From: Ignavibacteria bacterium
GTDB taxonomy: Bacteria > Bacteroidota > Ignavibacteria > Kapaibacteriales > UBA4661
Length of the DNA: 37,534 nt
Reading direction: 5' to 3'
Assembly: GCA_013298775.1 (NCBI GenBank)
Contig: JAAFIV010000043.1
Span: forward strand, 1 to 37,534
This document shows positions 4,989 to 37,534 of the stretch, in pieces; within the stretch, counting starts at the first letter, position 1, and the number at the start of each line of letters is the position of its first letter. The notes beneath the pieces are model-generated. The model saw nothing but the letters and a program-made list of their open reading frames with translations, did not search any database and had not been told where the DNA came from. A program made the translations under genes and the position numbers.

Positions 4989-6587
4989 TTAGCGAATATC
5001 AAACTTTTGTAATTTCCGATACAAGGTCGCAGGGCTGATGCCAAGCAGTTTTGCCGCTTTTTCCCGATGCCCGCCTACCGACTGCAATGCCGCAACAATT
5101 TCCTGCCGCGCTCGCTCATCTTCTGCGCGGCGCAAGGAAAATTGCAATTCCTGAGCCTGTTCTGGGGTCATTGGTGCGGTGTTGTAAGGATTTGCTCCAT
5201 ACACGGGGAATTGTCCCGAAGGCGCACCATAGCTTGCTCCGCCAGCACCTGCGGGCATGCCTTGTGGCATTCCCCCGCCCATACCATGCCCCTGTTGCGG
5301 ATAGTAGCCACCTTGCCCATAGCCCTGATGTGGTGCGGGGTATGGAGGAGGATAGCCACCGCCGTATTGTGGCTGCATTCCATACATTCCCTGCGGTAAA
5401 TGCCCTGTAAAGCTGATGTCGTCGAGTTCTTGTGCCAGAAGGTCGGGTGTGAGCATGGTTCCCGTACACAGCACAACGGCTCGCTCAATTGCATTGCGCA
5501 ATTCCCGCACATTGCCCTTCCAACGCCGCGCAGCAAGGGCATTCAGGAAGTTTGGCATCATTCCCAGCACATTTTTTTGATATTTCGCGGCAAAACTCGT
5601 GAGGAAGTATTGCGCAAGAATTTCCATGTCTTCACGGCGTTCGCGCAGTGCGGGCAAAATAATCGTAAAACCTTCCAAACGGTAGTACAAGTCAGCACGG
5701 AAGCGACCTGCATTGATTTCCTCTTGCGGATTGCGGTTCGTGGCGGCAATGATGCGAAAATCTACGTCAATCGAATCTGTGGAGCCAACTTTCGAGAACT
5801 TACGCGTCTCCAAGACCCGCAGCATCTTGGATTGCAGTGCCATTGGCATTTCCCCAATCTCATCCAGAAACAGCGTTCCTTCGTGTGCTTCTTCAATCAA
5901 GCCGCGTTTGTCGCGCACCGCACCAGAGAACGCGCCTTTTTGATAGCCAAAGAGTTCCGATTCCAAAAGGTCGGCGGGAATCGCACTACAATTCAGCGCA
6001 ATAAAGGGCTTTTTCGAGCGCGTACTGCCATTGTGGATAGACCGTGCAAATACTTCCTTGCCCGTGCCAGTTTCGCCCAAAAGCAGCGTGGGAATATCGG
6101 TTTGTGCAGCGTGTTTTGCCATTTGAATAGCAGCGTGCAAGGCAGGCGCGACGCCGATTATCGAACTAAACGCATCTTGCGAAACAAGCTGCTTTTGCAA
6201 TTCTTTCACCGCCGATTGCAACTGCGATTTTTCTGCCGCCCGCGCAATTGTGAGCATGAGTTGTTCGTGGTCACCCGTTTTGACGGCATAGTCAAACGCG
6301 CCATTTTTCATAGCTTCCACACCATCTTTCACTTCTGCATGCGCCGTGAGAACGATAACTTCCATCGCAGGTGCGAGGCTGCGCAAGTGCCGTACAAGCT
6401 CAATCCCGTTCATGTCGGGCAAATGCACGTCGGCAATTGCCACCGCATAGGGCTGCTTGACAACTTCCTCCAACGCAGCTTGTCCTGTCTGACACACGGC
6501 AACGTTATAGCCTTCGAGGTCGAACAAGTCCGCGAGCAAGCGAGAAAGCCGCTCGTCGTCGTCAATGAGCAAAATAGTTTTATTCAT
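4989..6587 (-). CDS. Sigma-54-dependent response regulator (NtrC family)
   Basis: A 532-residue transcription activator. The receiver domain (1-120) has acidic residues D10/D11, phosphoacceptor D53 (IADVHLPDMNG) and K103. The AAA+ domain (about 143-375) has Walker A GETGTGKE (171-178), the sigma-54 contact loop as GAFSGA (218-223, against the usual GAFTGA), Walker B LFLDEIGE and arginine finger region RFRADLYYRL. The C-terminal Fis-type helix-turn-helix covers about 490-530. Between AAA+ and Fis lies an unusual Gly/Pro/Gln/Tyr/Met-rich linker (about 398-474). No partner histidine kinase is in the window. I start at MNKTILLIDDD; an ATG three codons upstream is equally possible. Confidence 0.93.
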   Translation of the reverse strand: MNKTILLIDDDERLSRLLADLFDLEGYNVAVCQTGQAALEEVVKQPYAVAIADVHLPDMNGIELVRHLRSLAPAMEVIVLTAHAEVKDGVEAMKNGAFDYAVKTGDHEQLMLTIARAAEKSQLQSAVKELQKQLVSQDAFSSIIGVAPALHAAIQMAKHAAQTDIPTLLLGETGTGKEVFARSIHNGSTRSKKPFIALNCSAIPADLLESELFGYQKGAFSGAVRDKRGLIEEAHEGTLFLDEIGEMPMALQSKMLRVLETRKFSKVGSTDSIDVDFRIIAATNRNPQEEINAGRFRADLYYRLEGFTIILPALRERREDMEILAQYFLTSFAAKYQKNVLGMMPNFLNALAARRWKGNVRELRNAIERAVVLCTGTMLTPDLLAQELDDISFTGHLPQGMYGMQPQYGGGYPPPYPAPHQGYGQGGYYPQQGHGMGGGMPQGMPAGAGGASYGAPSGQFPVYGANPYNTAPMTPEQAQELQFSLRRAEDERARQEIVAALQSVGGHREKAAKLLGISPATLYRKLQKFDIR

Positions 6588-6714: not shown

Positions 6715-9267
6715 TTATTCCTCAAACTGCAACGACTGTACACAGCGCGGGAGAAGTATTGATGAGCGTTTGGGCAATTTCGACCCTTGGTAAAATTCTT
6801 CTTTCTCCATCGTATTTTGCCACGCATTCCACCAAAAGCGCGTAGAATCATGTTTTTGTGCGCTCTCTGGGTGAATTGACGAAGGATGAATGAACGAGGG
6901 ATGAATGAACGAAGGATGAATGAACGAGGAATGAATGAACGAGGGATGAATTGGCGAATACCGCAGCACGCCCAGCAATAGCCGCCTGTGTTGTTGCCAG
7001 TATTCCTCCGCATTTGCAAAGCGAAAGTGCGCCGTATCTCGCGTGATTGCTTGAATAGAATCCAGCGCACGAAACCACCGATTCCCTCGAAAACGCAGTG
7101 TTGAAGCCATGAGTACGACGTTGTGCGGCGTGTGATGTGTGGCGTGATATGCGGCGTGATATGCGGCGGATTTTTTTTCGCGCTGCCATTCTTGGAGAAT
7201 ATCCGCAAAGGCAAGCATGGACGCACTTCCGCTTGCAGAGCAGAGCAGCGTATCGGTTGTGGGGAAAATTGCAGTGCGTACAAAGCGCGTCAAATCTGGG
7301 TCGCGGGCAATAAATTCATTTGCTCCGAAGCAACGGCGGTCGTTCAAAAGCAGTATGCTTGTGCGTGAAACATGAGTAATGGCGAGGCTTGTGCGTGTGC
7401 GCGGGTAAATTGCACAGACTGTTGTGTGAGAACTGGATGAATAGTGCATTGCTCCAAAAGCGCATACAATCACACTTACAAGCGATACCGTGCCGCGAAA
7501 CACCGCATGACGACGCGAAGAGCTACCCACCACATAGACCGTCAAGAGAGCAAACGCGCTGGCAAGACAAAACGCAAACCCCAGTTGCGACGCGCCCTCC
7601 AGCCACGCGCCGCGAAATTCGGCGAAAAATGTATTCAACCAATTCATCAAAAGCAAGCATTGATGCGCTGTTTGGGCGAGAAACGCGCCCCCATTCCACC
7701 AAAAACTTGCAACAACAATACTCGCCATTGTGTAGAGCATTGCCAGTGAACTTATTGGTACAATGAGCAGATTTGCAAAGGGAGAGATAACGGAAAAAAC
7801 GCCAAAATACCACGCAACAATCGGCGCAATCACACACGAAGCGGCAATACTTACGCCAAGCGATTGCTCCAGCAAACGAACAGGGTACGACCGCCGAAAC
7901 CGCATTGATGCTGGCTTTCCACTTACCAGCATTTCGCAAAACTCCGTGCAGCGCGGCAAAAGAACGACAATTCCCAAGACTGCCGCGCACGACATTTGAA
8001 AACCAATCGAAAACAGCAACGATGGCTGCACCGCAAGCAACATAAGCACGCAAAATGCCAGCACATTCAAAAGACGCGCCCGCCGTTCCACGCTTTGCAG
8101 GAACATCAGCACACACGCCATCATTCCCGCTCGCACCGCCGATGCCGCCGCACCCGTCGCCAACACAAAAGCGGCAATACCAAGGCTAAACACCAGTATT
8201 TGTGCGGCTTTTGAACGAATAAACCCAAGCGGCAACAGAAAAATTGCTGCAACAACAGCTAAGTGCAAACCGCTCACGGCGAGAATATGCGCGGTTCCCG
8301 TGCGGGCGTACTGCTGGCGGGTTTCTGCGTCTAAAACGTGCGTATTGCCTGTGAGCAGGGCAAAAGCGAAATTGCTCGTGGAAGCTGGAAAGAGAGCATT
8401 GATGCGGCGTTGCGTCCATTCGGCAGTATATTCGGTGAAATTCCAAAGGCTACGCATTTCGCCGCGCCACGCACAGTGCTGTGCGTCAGCTTCGCCTATC
8501 CACGCGCTTTCGAGCGCATTGGCAACAAACTGTTCATCGCGCTCGCTCGGCAAAATGGGCGTTTGGGGCAATCGTACACGGAGTTCAGCATAGATGCGGC
8601 TTCCAGCGTGAATGTCGCGTGGAAGCAGCGCACGCTGCGCACGGGCAGAATCACGAGCAGTGCGCGGAGCGGGAAAGCGAAGTGTGAGGAGAATTGTTTC
8701 ATCAAAACGGCGTGGGAGTGGCGTTGCATCAAGGTTGCCGCGCACAAGAAGGCGGTATTGCACAGCGTGTGGCAGGGAATCGCAGCGTAGCACGCGGAGA
8801 ATTGTTCCGTGCAATCCAGCGTTCATCGTGGGTTGGAGTACAGAAAAACGCTTTTGTGGCGCGGTACTTTTTTCTGTGCCGAGCGCGGAAAAGGCAATGA
8901 GCAATCCCGCACAAATGCTTGCGCTCCAGTATGCGATTGCATTGAGAACATCAAACGAATGCTGGGCGGTGGTATTGCGTACATTGCGTACAAGTGCGAC
9001 AACACAGAGGACAACACAAGCGCAAGAGCTAGTAAAGATGAGCCTTTCAAGGAAAATTTCTCGCGAGAAGGAAAGCACCGTCATTGGAAAAGCAGCATGC
9101 GCAAGGAATAGTACAGCACAACCAACACCAACACCGCAGAGGAGCTTGAGTGCGGGAAGTTGCGTCGGGCGCGGCGCGGGTTTCACCGAAGGGAAGGAAA
9201 AAGTGGGAAAGAAAAACGCGGGAAAGAAAAATGCGAGAAAGAAAAACGTGGGAAAGGAATTCGGCAA
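6715..9267 (-). CDS. comEC: ComEC/Rec2-family DNA uptake channel protein
   Basis: Up to 850 residues. ComEC carries transforming single-stranded DNA across the inner membrane. Early membrane segments and a soluble OB-like region are followed by the competence domain, with the hallmark YARTGTAHILAVSGLHLAVV and a series of hydrophobic helices. The first possible codon is a TTG at 9267, directly after an in-frame stop, and the real start may be further in (a GTG lies near 9189). The first about 25 residues are a Phe/Pro repeat (FPTFF-type) and the C-terminus carries a FIHPS-type repeat; both come from 15-bp tandem DNA repeats. The C-terminal soluble part is short and I see no clear metallo-beta-lactamase motif. 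It lies in a same-strand run with the response regulator and asnB. Confidence 0.88.
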   Translation of the reverse strand: MPNSFPTFFFLAFFFPAFFFPTFSFPSVKPAPRPTQLPALKLLCGVGVGCAVLFLAHAAFPMTVLSFSREIFLERLIFTSSCACVVLCVVALVRNVRNTTAQHSFDVLNAIAYWSASICAGLLIAFSALGTEKSTAPQKRFSVLQPTMNAGLHGTILRVLRCDSLPHAVQYRLLVRGNLDATPLPRRFDETILLTLRFPAPRTARDSARAQRALLPRDIHAGSRIYAELRVRLPQTPILPSERDEQFVANALESAWIGEADAQHCAWRGEMRSLWNFTEYTAEWTQRRINALFPASTSNFAFALLTGNTHVLDAETRQQYARTGTAHILAVSGLHLAVVAAIFLLPLGFIRSKAAQILVFSLGIAAFVLATGAAASAVRAGMMACVLMFLQSVERRARLLNVLAFCVLMLLAVQPSLLFSIGFQMSCAAVLGIVVLLPRCTEFCEMLVSGKPASMRFRRSYPVRLLEQSLGVSIAASCVIAPIVAWYFGVFSVISPFANLLIVPISSLAMLYTMASIVVASFWWNGGAFLAQTAHQCLLLMNWLNTFFAEFRGAWLEGASQLGFAFCLASAFALLTVYVVGSSSRRHAVFRGTVSLVSVIVCAFGAMHYSSSSHTTVCAIYPRTRTSLAITHVSRTSILLLNDRRCFGANEFIARDPDLTRFVRTAIFPTTDTLLCSASGSASMLAFADILQEWQREKKSAAYHAAYHATHHTPHNVVLMASTLRFRGNRWFRALDSIQAITRDTAHFRFANAEEYWQQHRRLLLGVLRYSPIHPSFIHSSFIHPSFIHPSFIHPSSIHPESAQKHDSTRFWWNAWQNTMEKEEFYQGSKLPKRSSILLPRCVQSLQFEE
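6873..6958. repeat. 15-bp tandem repeat in the 3' end of comEC
   Basis: Five 15-bp units of the type GAATGAACGARGGAT plus a partial one. The unit is a multiple of three, so it encodes a pentapeptide repeat (FIHPS/FIHSS/SIHPE) near the ComEC C-terminus. Unit differences are mostly silent purine changes. Copy number can change without a frameshift. Confidence 0.9.
7656..7669 (+). repeat. Over-represented word AGYATTGATGCGCT (representative site)
   Basis: Full 14-base matches also at 11609-11622, 16804-16817 and 36189-36202. The 11-base core AGYATTGATGC also occurs at 8395-8405 and 27995-28005 (plus) and at 4737-4747 and 25475-25485 (minus). Ten-base AGYATTGATG matches occur near 6755, 18972 and 32610. 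Sites fall in all three reading frames of genes and in one intergenic region. Counted by eye. Confidence 0.7.
9203..9262. repeat. 15-bp tandem repeat at the 5' end of comEC
   Basis: Four 15-bp units of the type GYGGGAAAGAAAAAY. Read on the minus strand they encode a Phe/Pro-rich pentapeptide (FPTFF, FPAFF and similar). The array lies directly at the candidate TTG start, so it may be leader sequence instead of protein. Confidence 0.8.
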
Positions 9268-12479: not shown

Positions 12480-13643
12480 ATGACCTCTCTACCACAATCT
12501 TCTTCTGGTCTCTCTGCTTCCTCGCGCCCAAAACTCTCATCTGTTCTCGTTATCGGCGCGGGGATGAGCGGGCTGGTTGCGGCGCGAACTCTGCACAATG
12601 CGGGAATAAATGTAACGGTGATTGACAAAGGACGCGGCGTTGGTGGACGTTTGGCAACGCGTCGGCTCGCTGTTTCTGATAAAGAATCGCAACAGATTGA
12701 AGGGAAACTGGAAGGGAAAGTAGATCATGGCGCACAGTATCTCACCGCCCACGAAGGAGATTTTATTGCACTTGTCGAGGAATTACGCGAACATGGTGTT
12801 CTGAATGAATGGCGTACCACAAGCGGCGACCGACCCGCAACACCGCGCTATTACTCACCAGACGGAATGACTGCCGTTGCGAAATATCTTGCACAGGGCT
12901 TGGAAGTGCGGCTTGCAGAACGTGTTCTTCGTTTGGAGTATGATGCACATGCTGATAAAAATTTCTCAACAGATTCTTCACAGATAACAACCAGTGCAGG
13001 TACGCAGCAGGGCTGGAGAGCGCGTACAGACAAAGACGCAACGCTTCATGCCGACGCTCTCATTATCACCTCTCCAGTGCCGCAAACAATGATGCTGCTT
13101 GAAACGCTTGATTCGGCGAGGCTTGCAGAGATGTTGCCTGATACCACGCGCATCCTTCTCAATACAATTGAATACTCTGCCGCTCTTGTGTTGATGCTTG
13201 CTCTGAAGGAATCTCCCCGCTTTCTTGGGCAGCCGCTCGCTCCCAATGGTGGCATCCGCCTTGATACAAAGCACGTGTGGTGGTTGGCGGATAATCAACG
13301 GAAAGGAATCTCGCCGCATGTTCCCACATTAACCCTGCACGCGACACCAGAAGCCAGCCGTGAGCATTGGGACACCCGCGAAGAAGAACTCATACCGCTT
13401 TTGCTGCGCGATGTGAGTGATTATATTGGCATGCAAGAGATTGTGACGCATTCGCTGCATCGGTGGCGATACAGCCGTGTGTTGAAGCCTTTTCCTGAGC
13501 CGTATTGCCGTCTGCAAAGCCAATTCCCGTGCTATCTCGCGGGTGATGCCTTCACGCGCTCTGAGTGGCTTCCCACGCGTGCCGAAGATGCTGCATTGTC
13601 GGGCTTGGCTGCTGCTCGTGCATTATTGCTGGAAAGAGCGTAA
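12480..13643 (+). CDS. NAD(P)/FAD-dependent amine oxidoreductase, renalase-like
   Basis: A 387-residue flavoprotein starting MTSLPQSSSG. The Rossmann dinucleotide-binding motif is VLVIGAGMSGL (about 22-32), ending in an acidic residue (TVIDKG) that binds the FAD ribose. GRGVGGRLATRR and DHGAQYLTA follow, the signature of bacterial renalase-like proteins. The C-terminal LAGDAFTRSEW segment contributes to the FAD pocket. The substrate is unknown; eukaryotic and Pseudomonas renalases oxidise isomeric dihydronicotinamides, and the same could hold here by homology only. An upstream in-frame ATG would add a Lys/Arg/Asn-rich segment from the purine-rich intergenic DNA and is rejected. Confidence 0.85.
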   Translation: MTSLPQSSSGLSASSRPKLSSVLVIGAGMSGLVAARTLHNAGINVTVIDKGRGVGGRLATRRLAVSDKESQQIEGKLEGKVDHGAQYLTAHEGDFIALVEELREHGVLNEWRTTSGDRPATPRYYSPDGMTAVAKYLAQGLEVRLAERVLRLEYDAHADKNFSTDSSQITTSAGTQQGWRARTDKDATLHADALIITSPVPQTMMLLETLDSARLAEMLPDTTRILLNTIEYSAALVLMLALKESPRFLGQPLAPNGGIRLDTKHVWWLADNQRKGISPHVPTLTLHATPEASREHWDTREEELIPLLLRDVSDYIGMQEIVTHSLHRWRYSRVLKPFPEPYCRLQSQFPCYLAGDAFTRSEWLPTRAEDAALSGLAAARALLLERA

Positions 13644-13690
13644 ACGCTGGTTTGGTTCGTTTTGAAATTTAGATAAAATCGTCTGTTTCC

Positions 13691-13775
13691 GCCCTCATCC
13701 CCCGCATTCTCCCAGAGGGAGAAGGAGCTAAGACGAAGAAAATCAGACGCTTCTGAAGCCCTCTCCCTCTGGGAG
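13691..13775. repeat. CCCTC-type REP element, left part (interrupted)
   Basis: Matches the intact element at 23089-23190 (shared GAAGCCCTCTCCCTCTGGGA segment and a CCCTC start). The element stops after GGGAG at 13775 and resumes at 14014 with AGGGTTGGGTGAGGG. The interruption is the 227-bp element at 13776-14002. Confidence 0.8.
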
Positions 13776-14002
13776 CTAACAAGGGTAGGTATTCCAGAAG
13801 GCGCATAAAAACTAATGTTCTGTGTGAGGGTCTGACTTCTTCGTCAGGCTCTCACTTTCTTCACAGAGAAGAAGAAGAAGTGAGAGCCTTGAGTAAGAAT
13901 TGAGACCCTCACACTTGGCGTAAAATCTTAGTCTTGTATTTTCGATGTGTTTTCATAAACACGAGATTTTATGAGGCTTCCAGTAATATCTACCCTTATC
14001 AG
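13776..14002. mobile_element. MITE-like element, 227 bp, with 11-bp target duplication
   Basis: Imperfect terminal inverted repeats: left CTAACAAGGGTAGGTATT, right (other strand) CTGATAAGGGTAGATATT, with similarity continuing for roughly 30 bp. It is flanked by CCCTCTGGGAG (13765-13775) and CCCTCTGGCAG (14003-14013), an 11-bp duplication with one mismatch. Removing the element plus one flank restores the REP sequence seen at 23159-23190. It has no coding capacity. Inside lie two inverted REP-like hairpins (13825-13854 and about 13881-13911). Confidence 0.8.
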
Positions 14003-14111
14003 CCCTCTGGCAGAGGGTTGGGTGAGGGCAAGCACAAAATCAAGGTTTTATGCTAGGTACAGATTTTTATCTCAACTTCAATTCGTTCAAACAGGAAAAT
14101 ATCACAGATAC

Positions 14112-29928: not shown

Positions 29929-31650
<1,722 letters not shown>

Positions 31651-31666
31651 TTTTTTGGTAGTACAG

Positions 31667-31701
31667 AAAATGGAGTTCGTCGGTGCGGCGAACTCCATTT
31701 T
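31667..31701 (+). terminator. Rho-independent terminator after atpD
   Basis: Perfect 13-bp stem AAAATGGAGTTCG / CGAACTCCATTTT with a 9-base loop, 16 bp after the atpD stop. The T-run is short (four, then GC), so read-through is possible. Confidence 0.8.
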
Positions 31702-31760
31702 GCTTCAGTGGTACTTCGGTGCTCGTTTGGCAAGCATTTTTCGATTTTTACAAAAACTCC

Positions 31761-32141
31761 ATGGTACCCAACCACGTCAATATCGCTGAGAAATACAGCT
31801 TGTTTAGTGAAACATGGTCGCCGCGTATTGTGGGTGATTTGAACGAAAATTACATCAAAATTGCTCGCCTACAAGACGACTTCGTCTGGCACAGCCACGA
31901 ACATGAGGACGAACTTTTTGTCGTGTACAAAGGCACACTGTGTATGGATTTCCGCGACGGACGCACGGTGGAAGTACAACCAGGTGAAATTCTCATTGTG
32001 CCAAAAGGCGTGGAACACCGCCCCTACACACGCAATGGCGAGGAAGTTTGGGCAATGCTGGTCGAACCAAAATCCACGCTACACACGGGAACAACGAACA
32101 CGGAAAAAACTGTTGCCGTTGAAGCGCAGCAAAGGATTTGA
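31761..32141 (+). CDS. Cupin-domain protein
   Basis: A 126-residue single cupin barrel. Motif 1 is WHSHEHEDELFVVYKG (about 43-58) with metal ligands H44, H46 and a Glu; motif 2 is PGEILIVPKGVEHRPY with the last His. This is the general stand-alone cupin used for sugar isomerases, dioxygenases and binding proteins; the substrate cannot be told. I start at MVPNHVNIAEKY, as the longer reading from 31683 overlaps the atpD terminator. It lies between atpD and atpC, with no obvious link to ATP synthesis. Confidence 0.82.
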   Translation: MVPNHVNIAEKYSLFSETWSPRIVGDLNENYIKIARLQDDFVWHSHEHEDELFVVYKGTLCMDFRDGRTVEVQPGEILIVPKGVEHRPYTRNGEEVWAMLVEPKSTLHTGTTNTEKTVAVEAQQRI

Positions 32142-32196
32142 GCGGGCTTGAAGGCTATACAGATAGTTGCCTTTTGACAATTACTCTTGAACAATA

Positions 32197-32769
32197 ATGC
32201 TTGCAACAGCGCAGAAATACACGCTTGCAGACTACGAGGCACTTCCCGAAGGCGCACCGTATCAGCTTATTCATGGAGAACTTGTTATTTCGCCTACGCC
32301 AACGCCTTATCATCAAAAAATTCTTGGGCGCATACTTTGCAAAGTGTTAAAGTTCGCAGAACAAAGCGACTTGGGGCAGGTATTTCCTTCCCCGATAGAT
32401 GTCTATTTCAACGACGATAATGCCTACCAGCCTGATGTAGTCTTTGTTTCGACCGAGCGACTGGATATTATCGGAGAAACAAACGTACAAGGCGCACCAG
32501 ACCTCGTTGTTGAGGTATTATCCAGCAATGCCAAGCGTGATTTGGTGGACAAAAAAGATGTGTATGAGGCATTCGGCGTGAAGGAGTATTGGATAATTGA
32601 CCCTGAGCGCAAAAGTATTGATGTGCTGGAAAATACGCTCGGCAAGTATGGCAATGAGTTTCGCTTGTATTCTCGCGCTCGCAACGGCGAAGGTGCTGTG
32701 GAATCAAAAGTGCTAACAGGACTGAGTGTGGAAGCGGGATATGTGTTCGCGCCTCTGCACAAAAAATAG
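32197..32769 (+). CDS. Uma2 family putative endonuclease (PD-(D/E)XK fold)
   Basis: A 190-residue protein of the Uma2/DUF820 family, which has a restriction-endonuclease-like fold and is often multiplied in cyanobacteria and Bacteroidota. Typical parts: YTLADYEALPEGAPYQLIHG at the N-terminus, YQPDVVFVSTERLDII, GAPDLVVEVLSSNAKRDLVD (the catalytic D...E segment), KKDVYEAFGVKEYWIIDPER near the end. No cleavage activity has been established for the family. It starts 55 bp after the cupin and ends 56 bp before atpC, and so interrupts the atpD-atpC pair. Confidence 0.88.
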   Translation: MLATAQKYTLADYEALPEGAPYQLIHGELVISPTPTPYHQKILGRILCKVLKFAEQSDLGQVFPSPIDVYFNDDNAYQPDVVFVSTERLDIIGETNVQGAPDLVVEVLSSNAKRDLVDKKDVYEAFGVKEYWIIDPERKSIDVLENTLGKYGNEFRLYSRARNGEGAVESKVLTGLSVEAGYVFAPLHKK

Positions 32770-32825
32770 TAACGTGTATTCAAATCAAAAATCTTCTTTC
32801 ATTCTCGTTTCGTATTCACAAAACT

Positions 32826-33233
32826 ATGACCACAGGAAAACCATTCGACTTGGAAATCGTTACGCCGACAGGGCTTGCATTTGAAGGCAAAGTAGAAGCG
32901 GTGCTGGTTCCGGGTAAAGATAAGCCGTTTCAGGTCTTGGCAAACCACGCACCTGTTGTGGCGGAATTAGGCATTGGCGCAATCATTTTCAATGATAGTG
33001 CCAATAAAAGTACGAACTACGCAACAAGCGGAGGCTTCGTGCAAGTGCTAAAAAACAAGGTTTCATGCGTTGTTGAGACAGCAGAAGAAGCTGGCAGCAT
33101 CAACGTTCAACGCGCTCAAGAAGCAAAACAACGCGCCGAAGAACGCCTCGCAAAACGTGCCGAGCATGACGCAGTTCGCGCAGAGCTTTCTCTTGCACGT
33201 TCTATCAATCGCTTGAAAATTGCAGGAAAATAG
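32826..33233 (+). CDS. atpC: F1 ATP synthase epsilon subunit
   Basis: A 135-residue subunit of the F1 central stalk. The N-terminal beta sandwich reads FDLEIVTPTGLAFEGKVEAV, then VLVPGKDKPFQVLANHAPVV; the C-terminal helical hairpin is QRAQEAKQRAEERLAKRAEH and following residues. It starts at 32826 without a Shine-Dalgarno sequence. It is separated from atpD by about 1.2 kb holding a terminator, a cupin gene and a Uma2 gene, so it probably needs its own promoter or read-through. Confidence 0.93.
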   Translation: MTTGKPFDLEIVTPTGLAFEGKVEAVLVPGKDKPFQVLANHAPVVAELGIGAIIFNDSANKSTNYATSGGFVQVLKNKVSCVVETAEEAGSINVQRAQEAKQRAEERLAKRAEHDAVRAELSLARSINRLKIAGK

Positions 33234-34822: not shown

Positions 34823-36391
34823 TTATTCAAAAAGCGACTCGGTCTCGCGGGTAAAAGAAAGTAGTTGGGAAATGCGTCCGGGCTGCGCCCAATTACACGT
34901 GCCATCCATACGCTGGGATTGGAGAAAGGTCAGAATATGCGGATGTCGTAATGCCTCGCAAATGCGCTCTGCTTCTTCCAAAGAGTCCGCACAAATACTT
35001 GCGTGGAGGGCTTGATTTCCTTGCCATGCCTGCCCTGCCAGCGTTGCGAAGACACGAGGCGTAAATGTTTTCTGCCCAAATGCTTCCCACAAAACTTTAT
35101 ATGGCGCGAAACTATACGCTCCAACACCGAGTAATGCCCACCACAAGCCTTTTGTAACCAATGATTGAATAAGAGTCCCCTTGCGGGCTGTGAGGCGTTC
35201 TTGGTGCGCTGAAAGATAGTGCCACAGGGCATCGTGAGCCTGCACTTCCGCTTCTGTGAGTGGCTTACCGGTGTGCGTGTTGTGTGGAAGAAGTATCCAT
35301 TTATGCGGTATTGGAGCGGTTTCGCTAAAATTTATTTTGGTGGTAAGCGGATAGATACATTGCTTCGGTAATAACAATGGTGCGTTTGAGGCATTGCTTA
35401 CCCGCACCATTGCTGGGTTTTCGGTGTCAAGTTCGTATTGGTCAAAAATGAATACATCATTTGCTCCACACGTATTCGCGCCTTGTCGTGGTTTGGCTTT
35501 CTCAGGTAAAGAAATTTTCACAAAGCCTTGTATTGACGAGGCTTCTGCGCTCGTTGCTGTAACCGTTAATGGCGCGTTTTTGCGATACATTGGCTGCGCT
35601 GTCTGCTGCTTGAATCCCGTGCCATTAGCAATGTCGTCCGCAATAAAGTATGGAATGGGAAATTGCTGCTGCACGTCGCGCTGAAACGAGGCAAATCCGT
35701 AGCGCGTAGCAATGCCGTCGAAGATGTGATGCGGGTTGCAGTCGTAAATGCTTTGCACAGCAAAATCAATATTTTGCAAACGATACGAGCGAAACTGCTC
35801 ATGTGCGCCATCGTTCAAGAAAATAGACAACGGCAAGAAATAGTGCGCCTTTCCGCCCTTCTGAAGGTTTTTCACCAAAGTTTTTGCGATAATAAGCGCG
35901 GCAATATCCGCCCGCGAATTACCCAATAAAACATCGCCCGCAGAAGCAACCAAGCCATATTCATAAAACAATGGCTTGACAAGATTTTTATAGTCCGTCG
36001 GCAAATTCGTAAAGTTTTCCCATGGTGGGTTGCCGATGATAATATCCGCTTGCACGGGCGGCGCATTCAGCAAAATATCGGCGCAAACGAAATGTTCACG
36101 GGGAAAATCTATTCCAATATCAGCTTTCACAAGCGCGAAAAACTCTTCAACAAACGCTGCTTCGCGCTCTACGCCATGCAGCCGTGCCAGCATTGATGCG
36201 CTCACCAAGATATTCTGCTCTTGGGCAAGTTCTAGCATTGCCCGCAGAAACGCACCATTACCTGCCGTTGGGTCGAGGACGGACGCGCCTTCCAGCCATG
36301 CTTGAAACGCGCCTGTTTCTTGCAATGCCCATTTCGCCCATTTGAGAGGGGTGAAAATTGCGCCGAGTGGCTTGGGGTCTTGGTTTGTCAT
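34823..36391 (-). CDS. N6-adenine DNA methyltransferase (type II restriction-modification)
   Basis: A 522-residue enzyme. Motif I, binding S-adenosylmethionine, is VLDPTAGNGAFLRAM (38-52); the catalytic motif IV is IIIGNPPWENF (NPPW at 121-124), typical of adenine-N6 methylases with methylase domain first and target recognition after (gamma type). The C-terminal half (about 300-520) probably carries sequence specificity. The gene begins 6 bp after the stop of the predicted nuclease gene, which fits a restriction-modification operon. The recognition sequence cannot be read from the protein. Confidence 0.85.
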   Translation of the reverse strand: MTNQDPKPLGAIFTPLKWAKWALQETGAFQAWLEGASVLDPTAGNGAFLRAMLELAQEQNILVSASMLARLHGVEREAAFVEEFFALVKADIGIDFPREHFVCADILLNAPPVQADIIIGNPPWENFTNLPTDYKNLVKPLFYEYGLVASAGDVLLGNSRADIAALIIAKTLVKNLQKGGKAHYFLPLSIFLNDGAHEQFRSYRLQNIDFAVQSIYDCNPHHIFDGIATRYGFASFQRDVQQQFPIPYFIADDIANGTGFKQQTAQPMYRKNAPLTVTATSAEASSIQGFVKISLPEKAKPRQGANTCGANDVFIFDQYELDTENPAMVRVSNASNAPLLLPKQCIYPLTTKINFSETAPIPHKWILLPHNTHTGKPLTEAEVQAHDALWHYLSAHQERLTARKGTLIQSLVTKGLWWALLGVGAYSFAPYKVLWEAFGQKTFTPRVFATLAGQAWQGNQALHASICADSLEEAERICEALRHPHILTFLQSQRMDGTCNWAQPGRISQLLSFTRETESLFE

Positions 36392-36397
36392 TTATGA

Positions 36398-37078
36398 TTA
36401 GCGTGAAAATTTGAATGCCGTGTAGCCATTCGCTTTGAAATCTTGAAGCGATTTGATGCGTTTGTGTGCGTCGCGGCTTACCCGCTCGTAGTGCGTGATG
36501 GCAAGAGCCGTGAACATATCGTAAAACCTTGTTATTGAGCGATTCCACTCAATTTCTTCCCACACTTGATTCAGAGTGTAATTGAGCCTAACTTGACCAG
36601 TACCGAGATTTTCAATTCGATAACAATTCTCTGGAAGCAAGTGAAATGGCGCGACGCGAATATACTCCAAGTCTCGCCCGTTATGCTTGTCAGTGGATTG
36701 CGTATGCCCAAATTCCACAATCATAAACACGCCGTTATCGTTGGCAAGGAATTTGAGCAAATTCCCAATCGCACAGACACCACCGTCGGAATAGCGTGTA
36801 CTGTCAAGGTCTTTCGTCTTGACATCAAAACCAAACAAGACGGTATCACGCCTGCAAGCAAAATCAAAAATCGTTCTGCGCCCGGGAAGTTGCACAAAAT
36901 CAGTCTTCAATATTGTGCAGATTGATTCCCAGCTTTCGGTAATGCGCTTTTCAATCATTGCGCCAAAAGCCCGTGAATCCTCACGTGCGGAGATACCAGA
37001 TTGTAAATCGTCAAAAAGAGCGGTTATTTCGCGCTCAAAATTTTCACACAAACGCTGAAAATCTATTGTATCTGCCAT
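36398..37078 (-). CDS. Predicted type II restriction endonuclease (PD-(D/E)XK)
   Basis: A 226-residue protein beginning MADTIDFQRLCENF. A likely nuclease core is RTIFDFACRRDTVLFGFDVK (about 69-88), with D72 and D85-x-K87 as the metal-binding and catalytic residues. I do not recognise a named enzyme. The call rests on this motif plus position: 6 bp upstream of an adenine methylase and downstream of another. The ATG at 37078 is chosen because GGAGG lies eight bases before it; a GTG one codon earlier is possible. It overlaps the preceding fragment's stop (TGATG). Confidence 0.7.
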   Translation of the reverse strand: MADTIDFQRLCENFEREITALFDDLQSGISAREDSRAFGAMIEKRITESWESICTILKTDFVQLPGRRTIFDFACRRDTVLFGFDVKTKDLDSTRYSDGGVCAIGNLLKFLANDNGVFMIVEFGHTQSTDKHNGRDLEYIRVAPFHLLPENCYRIENLGTGQVRLNYTLNQVWEEIEWNRSITRFYDMFTALAITHYERVSRDAHKRIKSLQDFKANGYTAFKFSR

Positions 37079-37212
37079 CACATATTCCTCCGATACTGCC
37101 CACCAACCTCATACAACGCCCCCGAAATCTGCCCCAAACTGCACACCTTCGCCGCTTCCATCAGTTCGGCAAAGATGTTTTGATTGTTGATATAGGTTCG
37201 GTAGTTGCTCAT
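37078..37212 (-). pseudogene. Orphan C-terminal tail of a B12-dependent acyl-CoA mutase (IcmF/MCM type)
   Basis: A 44-codon frame from the ATG at 37212 to the natural C-terminus. It reads [20 protein letters not shown], then [14 protein letters not shown], which is the characteristic end of the IcmF/methylmalonyl-CoA mutase family (fused isobutyryl-CoA mutase). The catalytic barrel and B12 domain are absent. Its start overlaps the upstream methylase stop as ATGA and its stop overlaps the nuclease start as TGATG. The final codons supply the nuclease gene's GGAGG. I read it as a scar of a mutase gene replaced by the upstream methylase; a functional small peptide cannot be excluded. Confidence 0.75.
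37087..37091 (-). promoter_or_regulatory. Shine-Dalgarno of the nuclease gene, inside the mutase tail
   Basis: GGAGG on the minus strand, eight bases before the ATG at 37078. It is formed by the codons for the Arg-Arg of the terminal RRNM of the mutase tail, in a window where most starts lack such a site. Confidence 0.6.
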
Positions 37213-37534
37213 GGCGTGAGGAGTGAGTGAAAAATTTCGTTGAGTATTTGCACTGCTTCCGTTGTTTTTTGTCCCGTGTAATGATGTTGAAATATGCTTG
37301 CCAAGCATTGTTCAATTCGTTGTTCAGATTGAGCATCAATTACCGATAGATCCAGCACCAAAGAGGAGTTCAAGTCATTCGGCTCGAATTTTTCCAAGCC
37401 ATCACCATACTCACGACGATTATCGCGGAAGATTTCTTTGGCAACATCCGTGATGAGATACGCAAATAAGAGCTTTTCTTTGCCTTGCGCAAAAAGATTG
37501 GGATAAAAGCAGTGATACGCTGTCAAATTACGCA
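37209..37534 (-). CDS. C-terminal end of a DNA methyltransferase (runs off window)
   Basis: At least 108 codons are open to the window edge; the true start is outside. The text [20 protein letters not shown], then [20 protein letters not shown], matches the end of N6-adenine methylases of the Eco57I/TaqI type, where this region closes the target-recognition domain. A TTG near the edge is not a credible start. The stop overlaps the mutase tail (ATGA). Together with the nuclease and second methylase it suggests a two-methylase type II system, as needed for an asymmetric target. Confidence 0.7.

Follow-up and report, generated by a model that had tools for sequence, protein, structure and literature searches.

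Displaced ends of a mutase gene among restriction-modification and other defence genes suggest recurrent insertion at the icmF 3' end in Bacteroidota

Background

SCC elements integrate site-specifically at rlmH and are found stacked there. Stacked SCC elements and integron cassette arrays resemble the 3' end of icmF, the mutase gene considered here, in that serial cassettes lie behind a fixed gene or site, each by a copy of a repeat. The icmF site differs from both in that neither ccr nor an integron integrase was found, and in that the repeat is a stretch of mutase coding sequence of variable length.

Insertion of restriction-modification (R-M) genes with a long and variable target duplication has been described (Nobusato et al. 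2000 and Furuta et al. 2010, as cited in PMC3031569). These events share with the icmF site the placement of R-M genes between the end of a target gene and a long second copy of variable length, with no insertion sequence or integrase seen. The icmF site is unlike them in being used repeatedly at one gene end, serially and in many species, and in carrying genes other than R-M genes as well. The icmF copies moreover differ by up to about 15%, and so they need not be fresh duplications. A relative with an uninterrupted site is available for one of the arrays described below (the icmF-R.AccI junction of genome G000, for the array of genome G005); for the scar of the window itself, none was found among 123 genomes of the order.

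Homology-facilitated illegitimate recombination, known from experiments (PMC3240628), would yield one homologous and one illegitimate joint. The icmF loci have the same appearance, as judged from their joints. The defence hotspots at core genes of E. coli are islands that mostly carry prophages, integrases or other mobility genes (PMC10121019). They are comparable to the icmF site in placing variable defence genes at a fixed core-gene position, and they differ in that mobility genes were not found at the icmF site among the 34 proteins scanned. Long target duplication at R-M genes, homology-facilitated illegitimate recombination and defence hotspots at core genes are known already. The literature matches listed contain no description of an icmF or mutase end as an insertion site, or of serial scars of one gene. 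The locus bears on the question of how small defence genes that lack an integrase are moved and come to be stacked beside core genes.

A mutase gene end between a methylase and a putative nuclease

The window, i.e. the whole stretch of DNA that was analysed (37,534 nucleotides), is the entire contig C38 of genome G000 of the order Kapaibacteriales; other genomes, contigs and loci are given survey numbers in the same way. Read on the minus strand, it starts inside a methylase gene and contains the following features.

37209..37532, minus strand: M.AccI, AccI-type methylase, C-terminal 107 codons, running off the contig end (PADLOC PDLC03331, 1.9e-25)
37078..37212, minus strand: scar mini-ORF of 44 codons, seven non-mutase residues followed by the last 37 residues of the mutase
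37192..37212, minus strand: non-icmF beginning of the mini-ORF (MSNYRTY), overlapping the M.AccI stop
37075..37191, minus strand: second copy of the icmF 3' end, 117 bp, with stop and TGATGG junction (by DNA identity)
37087..37091, minus strand: GGAGG, candidate ribosome-binding site of R2, within mutase codons (by sequence reading)
36398..37078, minus strand: R2, putative restriction endonuclease, 226 aa (start overlapping the scar stop; linkage to M2 homologues)
34823..36391, minus strand: M2, adenine methylase-like, 522 aa (PADLOC type IIG, 8.9e-28)

The scar frame is open from the ATG at 37212 to the TGA at 37078, and read upstream the same frame extends to 76 aa. The preliminary description of this DNA had reported a 44-codon frame overlapping a methylase stop and a nuclease-like start, and such a frame is present: ATGA at 37209-37212 couples the scar start with the stop of the upstream methylase frame, and TGATG at 37076-37080 couples the scar stop with the start of the R2 frame. 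The peptide had been called an exact mutase C-terminus, which is correct for residues 8-44, identical to the C-terminal 37 residues of the genome's own mutase, and incorrect for the first seven (MSNYRTY), which are unrelated. Joints similar to that between MSNYRTY and the M.AccI stop occur in G001, G002 and G007. At the DNA level, positions 37075-37191 (117 bp) match positions 30499-30615 of contig C44 of the same genome with 97% identity (E 1.1e-49), so that the match is not due to chance. The earlier view of the peptide as a mutase 3' end displaced by recombination is supported. The composition of the scar (GC 0.49, GC3 0.68), based on 44 codons only, is closer to that of the mutase (0.51, 0.58) than to that of the M.AccI tail (0.42, 0.42) or R2 (0.45, 0.47). 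The GGAGG at 37087-37091 sits in mutase Arg codons, 8 nt ahead of the R2 ATG, in agreement with the proposal that a ribosome-binding site for R2 may be made from mutase codons.

As had been proposed, another methylase now precedes the peptide. The M.AccI tail is a type II methylase C-terminus, with 94.9% DNA identity over 196 bp to the methylase that lies beside R.AccI in G005. The nuclease of the preliminary description is putative, named from its linkage to M2 and an IFD..FDVK motif conserved in a two-sequence alignment. R2 gave no Pfam or PADLOC match and no PDB relative beyond E 0.05, and a single-sequence structure model was unusable (pLDDT 39.5). The Pfam matches of M2, to Eco57I (2e-4) and N6_Mtase (6e-3), both fall below the cut-off. 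R2 occurs in three of the 123 order genomes (G000, G021 and G025). In the latter two, its homologues (66%; partial, 68%) adjoin M2 homologues (45% and 40%) on contigs other than the icmF contigs, which argues that the icmF piece belongs to the site and not to R2-M2.

The resident mutase and the AccI genes

The recombination event originally envisaged would have replaced most of the mutase gene. This is ruled out by the intact gene that was found elsewhere in the genome, as the preliminary description had suggested looking for. The gene, on contig C44, encodes a PF01642 mutase-domain protein of 694 aa, which is not the full fused IcmF; the fused form, of about 1157 aa, is present in Hymenobacter. 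Its last codons pass through ATGTGATGG, the same junction sequence as at the scar, into an AccI-family restriction gene (R.AccI; PF09545, 7.4e-128) that is cut by the contig end. The mutase is thus itself joined to a nuclease gene; an entire R-M system seems to have entered at its 3' end.

The methylase of the window is the only M.AccI tail in the G000 assembly, where the sole other match to PDLC03331 is a weak N-terminal one on contig C65; the methylase beside R.AccI in G005 matches this family at 1.8e-155. On the G005 locus (L051), the end of C44 maps to position 5374 and base 5 of C38 to position 6731, with about 1352 bp between. From this synteny we strongly infer that C44 and C38 are neighbours across one unsequenced gap of about 1.35 kb. 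The most likely gene order in G000 is icmF, R.AccI-M.AccI, icmF 3' fragment, R2-M2. In G005, the adjacency of R.AccI to its cognate methylase and the placement of R-M genes between direct icmF copies are each seen on one contig; in G000 both would span the gap.

Other features of these contigs may be recorded here. G000:C38 and G002:C571, contigs from two species, break at the identical base inside M.AccI, perhaps because of a second AccI copy (compare G002:C285). Tandem Uma2-family genes lie immediately before icmF on C44 (L003:13423-16493), four of the five assigned by Pfam and the first (13423-14049) by resemblance only. At 30244-33233 of the window (plus strand), a cupin gene and a gene of the Uma2 family (putative restriction endonuclease) split ATP synthase beta (30244-31650) from epsilon (32826-33233), and are accessory genes within the atpDC unit.

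Recurrence in the order

The 123 order genomes were searched with a 38-aa mutase C-terminus, and 101 gave a match. A truncated icmF copy was found in six (G000, G001, G002, G005, G007 and G011), a count from which short copies in G025 and G119 were left out as contig-end effects; frames of 247-406 aa in G050, G054, G066 and G082 were also left uncounted. In G001 and G002 the truncated copy is the sole match, the genome's own icmF end being missing from the assembly.

The most complete arrangement, on a single contig of G005, runs icmF, R_X, a type II methylase, a 65-bp icmF fragment, R.AccI, M.AccI and an M2 remnant. R_X has no family match, and the neighbouring methylase (M_X) belongs to PDLC03354 (3.5e-123). 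The icmF-R.AccI junction is uninterrupted in G000, and the R_X-M_X pair intervenes in G005. R.AccI (96% identical over 900 bp) thus occupies the first slot, directly behind icmF, in G000 and the second, behind a scar, in G005. This comparison indicates that new cargo entered at the full icmF end and displaced the older cargo, together with a piece of icmF, downstream.

G007 holds three icmF ends on two contigs. Its first array consists of the full icmF, two other genes, a 50-bp M.AccI remnant, a 44-codon scar and then a broken frame; its second scar has an M2 homologue (85%) on one side and an AAA_21 ATPase gene (best PADLOC matches HEC-01A) on the other, in a region that also has a gene with a sub-threshold DUF4276 match. 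In G001 and G002 the scar follows M.AccI immediately, as in G000, and the DNA beyond it differs. Contig C285 of G002 has a weak icmF copy (71% over 87 bp) ahead of R.AccI. In G011, from another family, the order is icmF, a DUF1016/YhcG nuclease gene, an 82-bp icmF fragment and a HATPase_c_4 gene. In G006 and G009, icmF is not followed by a fused defence gene. In other Kapaibacteria families, and with no scar, a KAP NTPase gene with QatA-like matches overlaps the icmF stop in G032 (L174:1999-4998), and an AAA_21 ATPase gene begins about 60 nt after icmF in G018 (L013:3562-4863).

Recurrence in Hymenobacter and a control

Beyond the order, a second C-terminus was found downstream of icmF in six of 80 named loci, four of them from Hymenobacter. 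In a survey of 120 genomes of that genus (114 with a match), 17 have at least one truncated icmF copy, and these copies lie on the same contig and strand as icmF, 0.4 to 8.2 kb downstream. G224 was dropped from this count for a contig-end effect, and G217 and G180, with two full-length copies each, were not counted; G219 was, though the contig with its array is short and a different contig holds one more full icmF.

As a control, icmF was compared with other genes within the named loci. A truncated second C-terminus was present for six of the 66 icmF genes that had 1500 bp or more behind them, versus one of 409 other ORFs of at least 250 aa (Fisher p 3.7e-5), and the lone control match runs antisense to an icmF scar. 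No icmF ORF was recovered from five of the 80 loci, and length and overlap filters removed the rest of the missing ones.

The cargo changes slots in Hymenobacter as well. A PD_DExK gene (PDLC01472) is first behind icmF in G202, G203, G205 and G238 and second in G123 and G125, and a MYTARTG-type gene (weak PD-T4-9_A match) is first in G123, G126 and G226 and second in G182. In G169 (L221), Hachiman genes for HamA and a HamB-like helicase (HamB in two frames) lie directly behind icmF, and a PD_DExK gene and an icmF scar are found 8.2 kb downstream of icmF. Other cargo includes a PDDEXK_2 nuclease, DUF6000, DUF1493 and a sub-threshold PIN match, along with several genes that have no match. A vector for these cassettes was not found in the phage and plasmid records searched: no phage record matched the scar peptide, and the six plasmid records that did are annotated as mutase or IcmF (three) or unannotated (three).

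The joints and the route of insertion

Repeated insertion at the icmF end is well supported by these comparisons. Our main reading, to which we give a probability of about 0.72, is that defence genes have repeatedly been inserted at the mutase 3' end and that the AccI pair entered there, leaving the scar. The edges of the icmF pieces bear on the route. Of the 25 pieces aligned, which come from 20 loci, 20 have their end no more than 6 nt from the icmF stop (the remaining five at +57, -16, -40, -53 and -187), and the left edges of these 20 range from -45 to -247, so that no constant core is seen at the crossover. A variable edge inside icmF together with a sharp edge at the stop fits homologous recombination in the coding end, combined with illegitimate joining at the opposite side. 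Copies from different strains would likewise show a sharp edge at the stop, because intergenic DNA diverges. For the 20 pieces ending at the stop, the copies share 84.8-97.8% identity, and for 14 Hymenobacter scars a sister-species comparison did not distinguish the native copy from a foreign one.

The AccI R-M pair would have entered at the mutase 3' end by two unlike joints. On one side, joining by homology in the mutase coding end would have kept the gene whole, continuing past its stop into R.AccI. On the other, presumably by illegitimate joining, the pair would have joined within a mutase end, whose final ~114 bp would now separate M.AccI from R2 as a scar. Such cargo would later move by ordinary double crossover between the two mutase ends. 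One Hymenobacter gene has different right joints in G203 and G205; the G203 joint falls on CGAGCT of the resident end (CCGAGCT in other Hymenobacter ends), a sequence also present at the end of the gene in G205. This microhomology of 6-7 nt is a single case, noted by eye.

The first scar of G007 looks like a mosaic, differing from the resident end at 14 of 58 positions in its first half and at 1 of 56 in its second (p 0.0005). The corresponding values for the G000 scar, 4 of 58 and 0 of 56, are not significant (p 0.12). In the window's genus, the last 24 icmF codons have the lowest synonymous divergence among 648 windows (0.083 vs 0.291 for four species, 0.159 vs 0.352 for five), and against G003, which lacks the TGATG junction, the icmF end is not low (0.67-0.71 vs 0.52-0.55). 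The low divergence within the genus would be explained by exchange of ends, and equally by selection on the translation signal. In close pairs of Hymenobacter, the last icmF window is raised (0.216, 127 pairs), as is the first (0.214); the icmF end there is more divergent than its neighbouring windows, which does not help the recombination model.

The joints also bear on a different history, in which the icmF fragment is the tail of an AccI cassette that moves between species as a unit by crossovers in icmF and in the tail, with R2-M2 either already behind the recipient icmF or joined to the scar later. We regard this as possible and somewhat doubtful. It accounts for the identical M.AccI/icmF-fragment joint in G000, G001 and G002, the 50-bp M.AccI remnant before the G007 scar and the different DNA behind each, and at the markers in its first half the G000 scar has 3 differences from the G002 scar and 4 from the resident end, a small margin in favour of the former. 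The shared joint may, however, reflect plain inheritance within one genus, and left edges vary between cassettes and, for the same Hymenobacter gene, between species, arguing that cassettes do not generally include the tail as a fixed component.

Several orders of events are conceivable at the window's locus. Insertion of the AccI pair may have preceded that of R2-M2, the pair may have arrived already carrying the scar as a tail, or R2-M2 may have been added behind the scar afterwards. That the M.AccI/scar joint is common to G000, G001 and G002 while the DNA beyond it differs suggests that R2-M2 may have come later. The preliminary description had the nuclease-methylase pair sitting first behind the mutase; this finds no backing in the order, where no icmF-R2 junction without AccI was found (123 genomes, R2 in three) and the M.AccI/scar joint occurs elsewhere with other DNA behind it.

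Site-specific integration, in which an unseen tyrosine or serine recombinase would use an attachment site at the icmF 3' end and the scar would be the displaced end, is an unlikely account. It would explain the single fixed gene end, the sharp edge at the stop codon, the stacking and the recurrence, yet the spread of left edges argues against it, and no integrase or site-specific recombinase family was found among the 34 proteins scanned with Pfam, a subset of the ORFs. One cargo protein in this set belongs to PF12784 (PDDEXK_2), a family named PD-(D/E)XK nuclease family transposase.

Translation across the junction

The sequence around the scar suggests how the inserted genes may be translated. 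In all eight listed junctions of the genus that have a gene behind them (one gene broken), GGAGG precedes an ATG, and this ATG overlaps the stop or comes one base after it. G006 and G009, which have no fused gene, also show GGAGG with TGATG or TGATGA, and the GGAGG/ATG arrangement is absent from G003 and from the G001 scar. The scar frame is open in all five scars among the eight junctions, including that of G002:C285, which reads MSSEKTLSVLPEIHGQCGRNM. It is broken at G002:C571, where no gene follows directly, and G001 has an open scar ORF although no gene is fused. Through GGAGG and TGATG, the scar ORF would couple translation of M.AccI and R2, and the pattern would fit a bridge in which the frame matters and the sequence does not. 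The earlier suggestion that the peptide could serve only as a translational bridge is in this sense supported.

A small functional peptide or regulator retained for its own sake is a very improbable explanation of the scar ORF. The frame is open in G000, G001, G005, both G007 scars and G011, and the four differences between the G000 scar and the resident end, all in the first 58 bp, are synonymous. Against this, the frame is broken in G002:C571 and replaced by an almost unrelated open frame in G002:C285, icmF copies in four Hymenobacter genomes hold internal stops, and the N-termini differ. The preliminary description had considered that the peptide might recur in unrelated genomes as a functional gene. 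Icm­F ends do recur between defence genes, in several species and in Hymenobacter, but some copies drift or break, which argues for repeated insertion rather than a conserved peptide gene and rules out the latter as the main reading.

An assembly or binning artefact can practically be dismissed: although G000 is a draft of 95 contigs, C44 and C38 both end inside AccI genes and three other short copies (G025, G119 and G224) were contig-end effects, the scar and R2-M2 lie well within C38, G005 has a full array on one contig, and the complete genome of Hymenobacter sp. BT18 carries an icmF scar.

Conclusions

Insertion at the mutase end leaves oriented fragments of one gene, with the same cargo found before and behind fragments, so that the history of these loci can be read and their joints compared. 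The finding also provides a search handle, in that a core gene followed downstream by truncated copies of its own 3' end would flag an integrase-free defence island. A broader proposal, which we offer tentatively, is that the mutase 3' end in Bacteroidota may serve as a recombinase-free cassette dock. A defence gene between two icmF ends would be a homology-flanked cassette, carried between species and stacked by ordinary recombination, with transcription provided by icmF, which in the window's genus would also contribute an embedded ribosome-binding site. If this is true, the dock would be an analogue of an integron, made from the last codons of a housekeeping gene.
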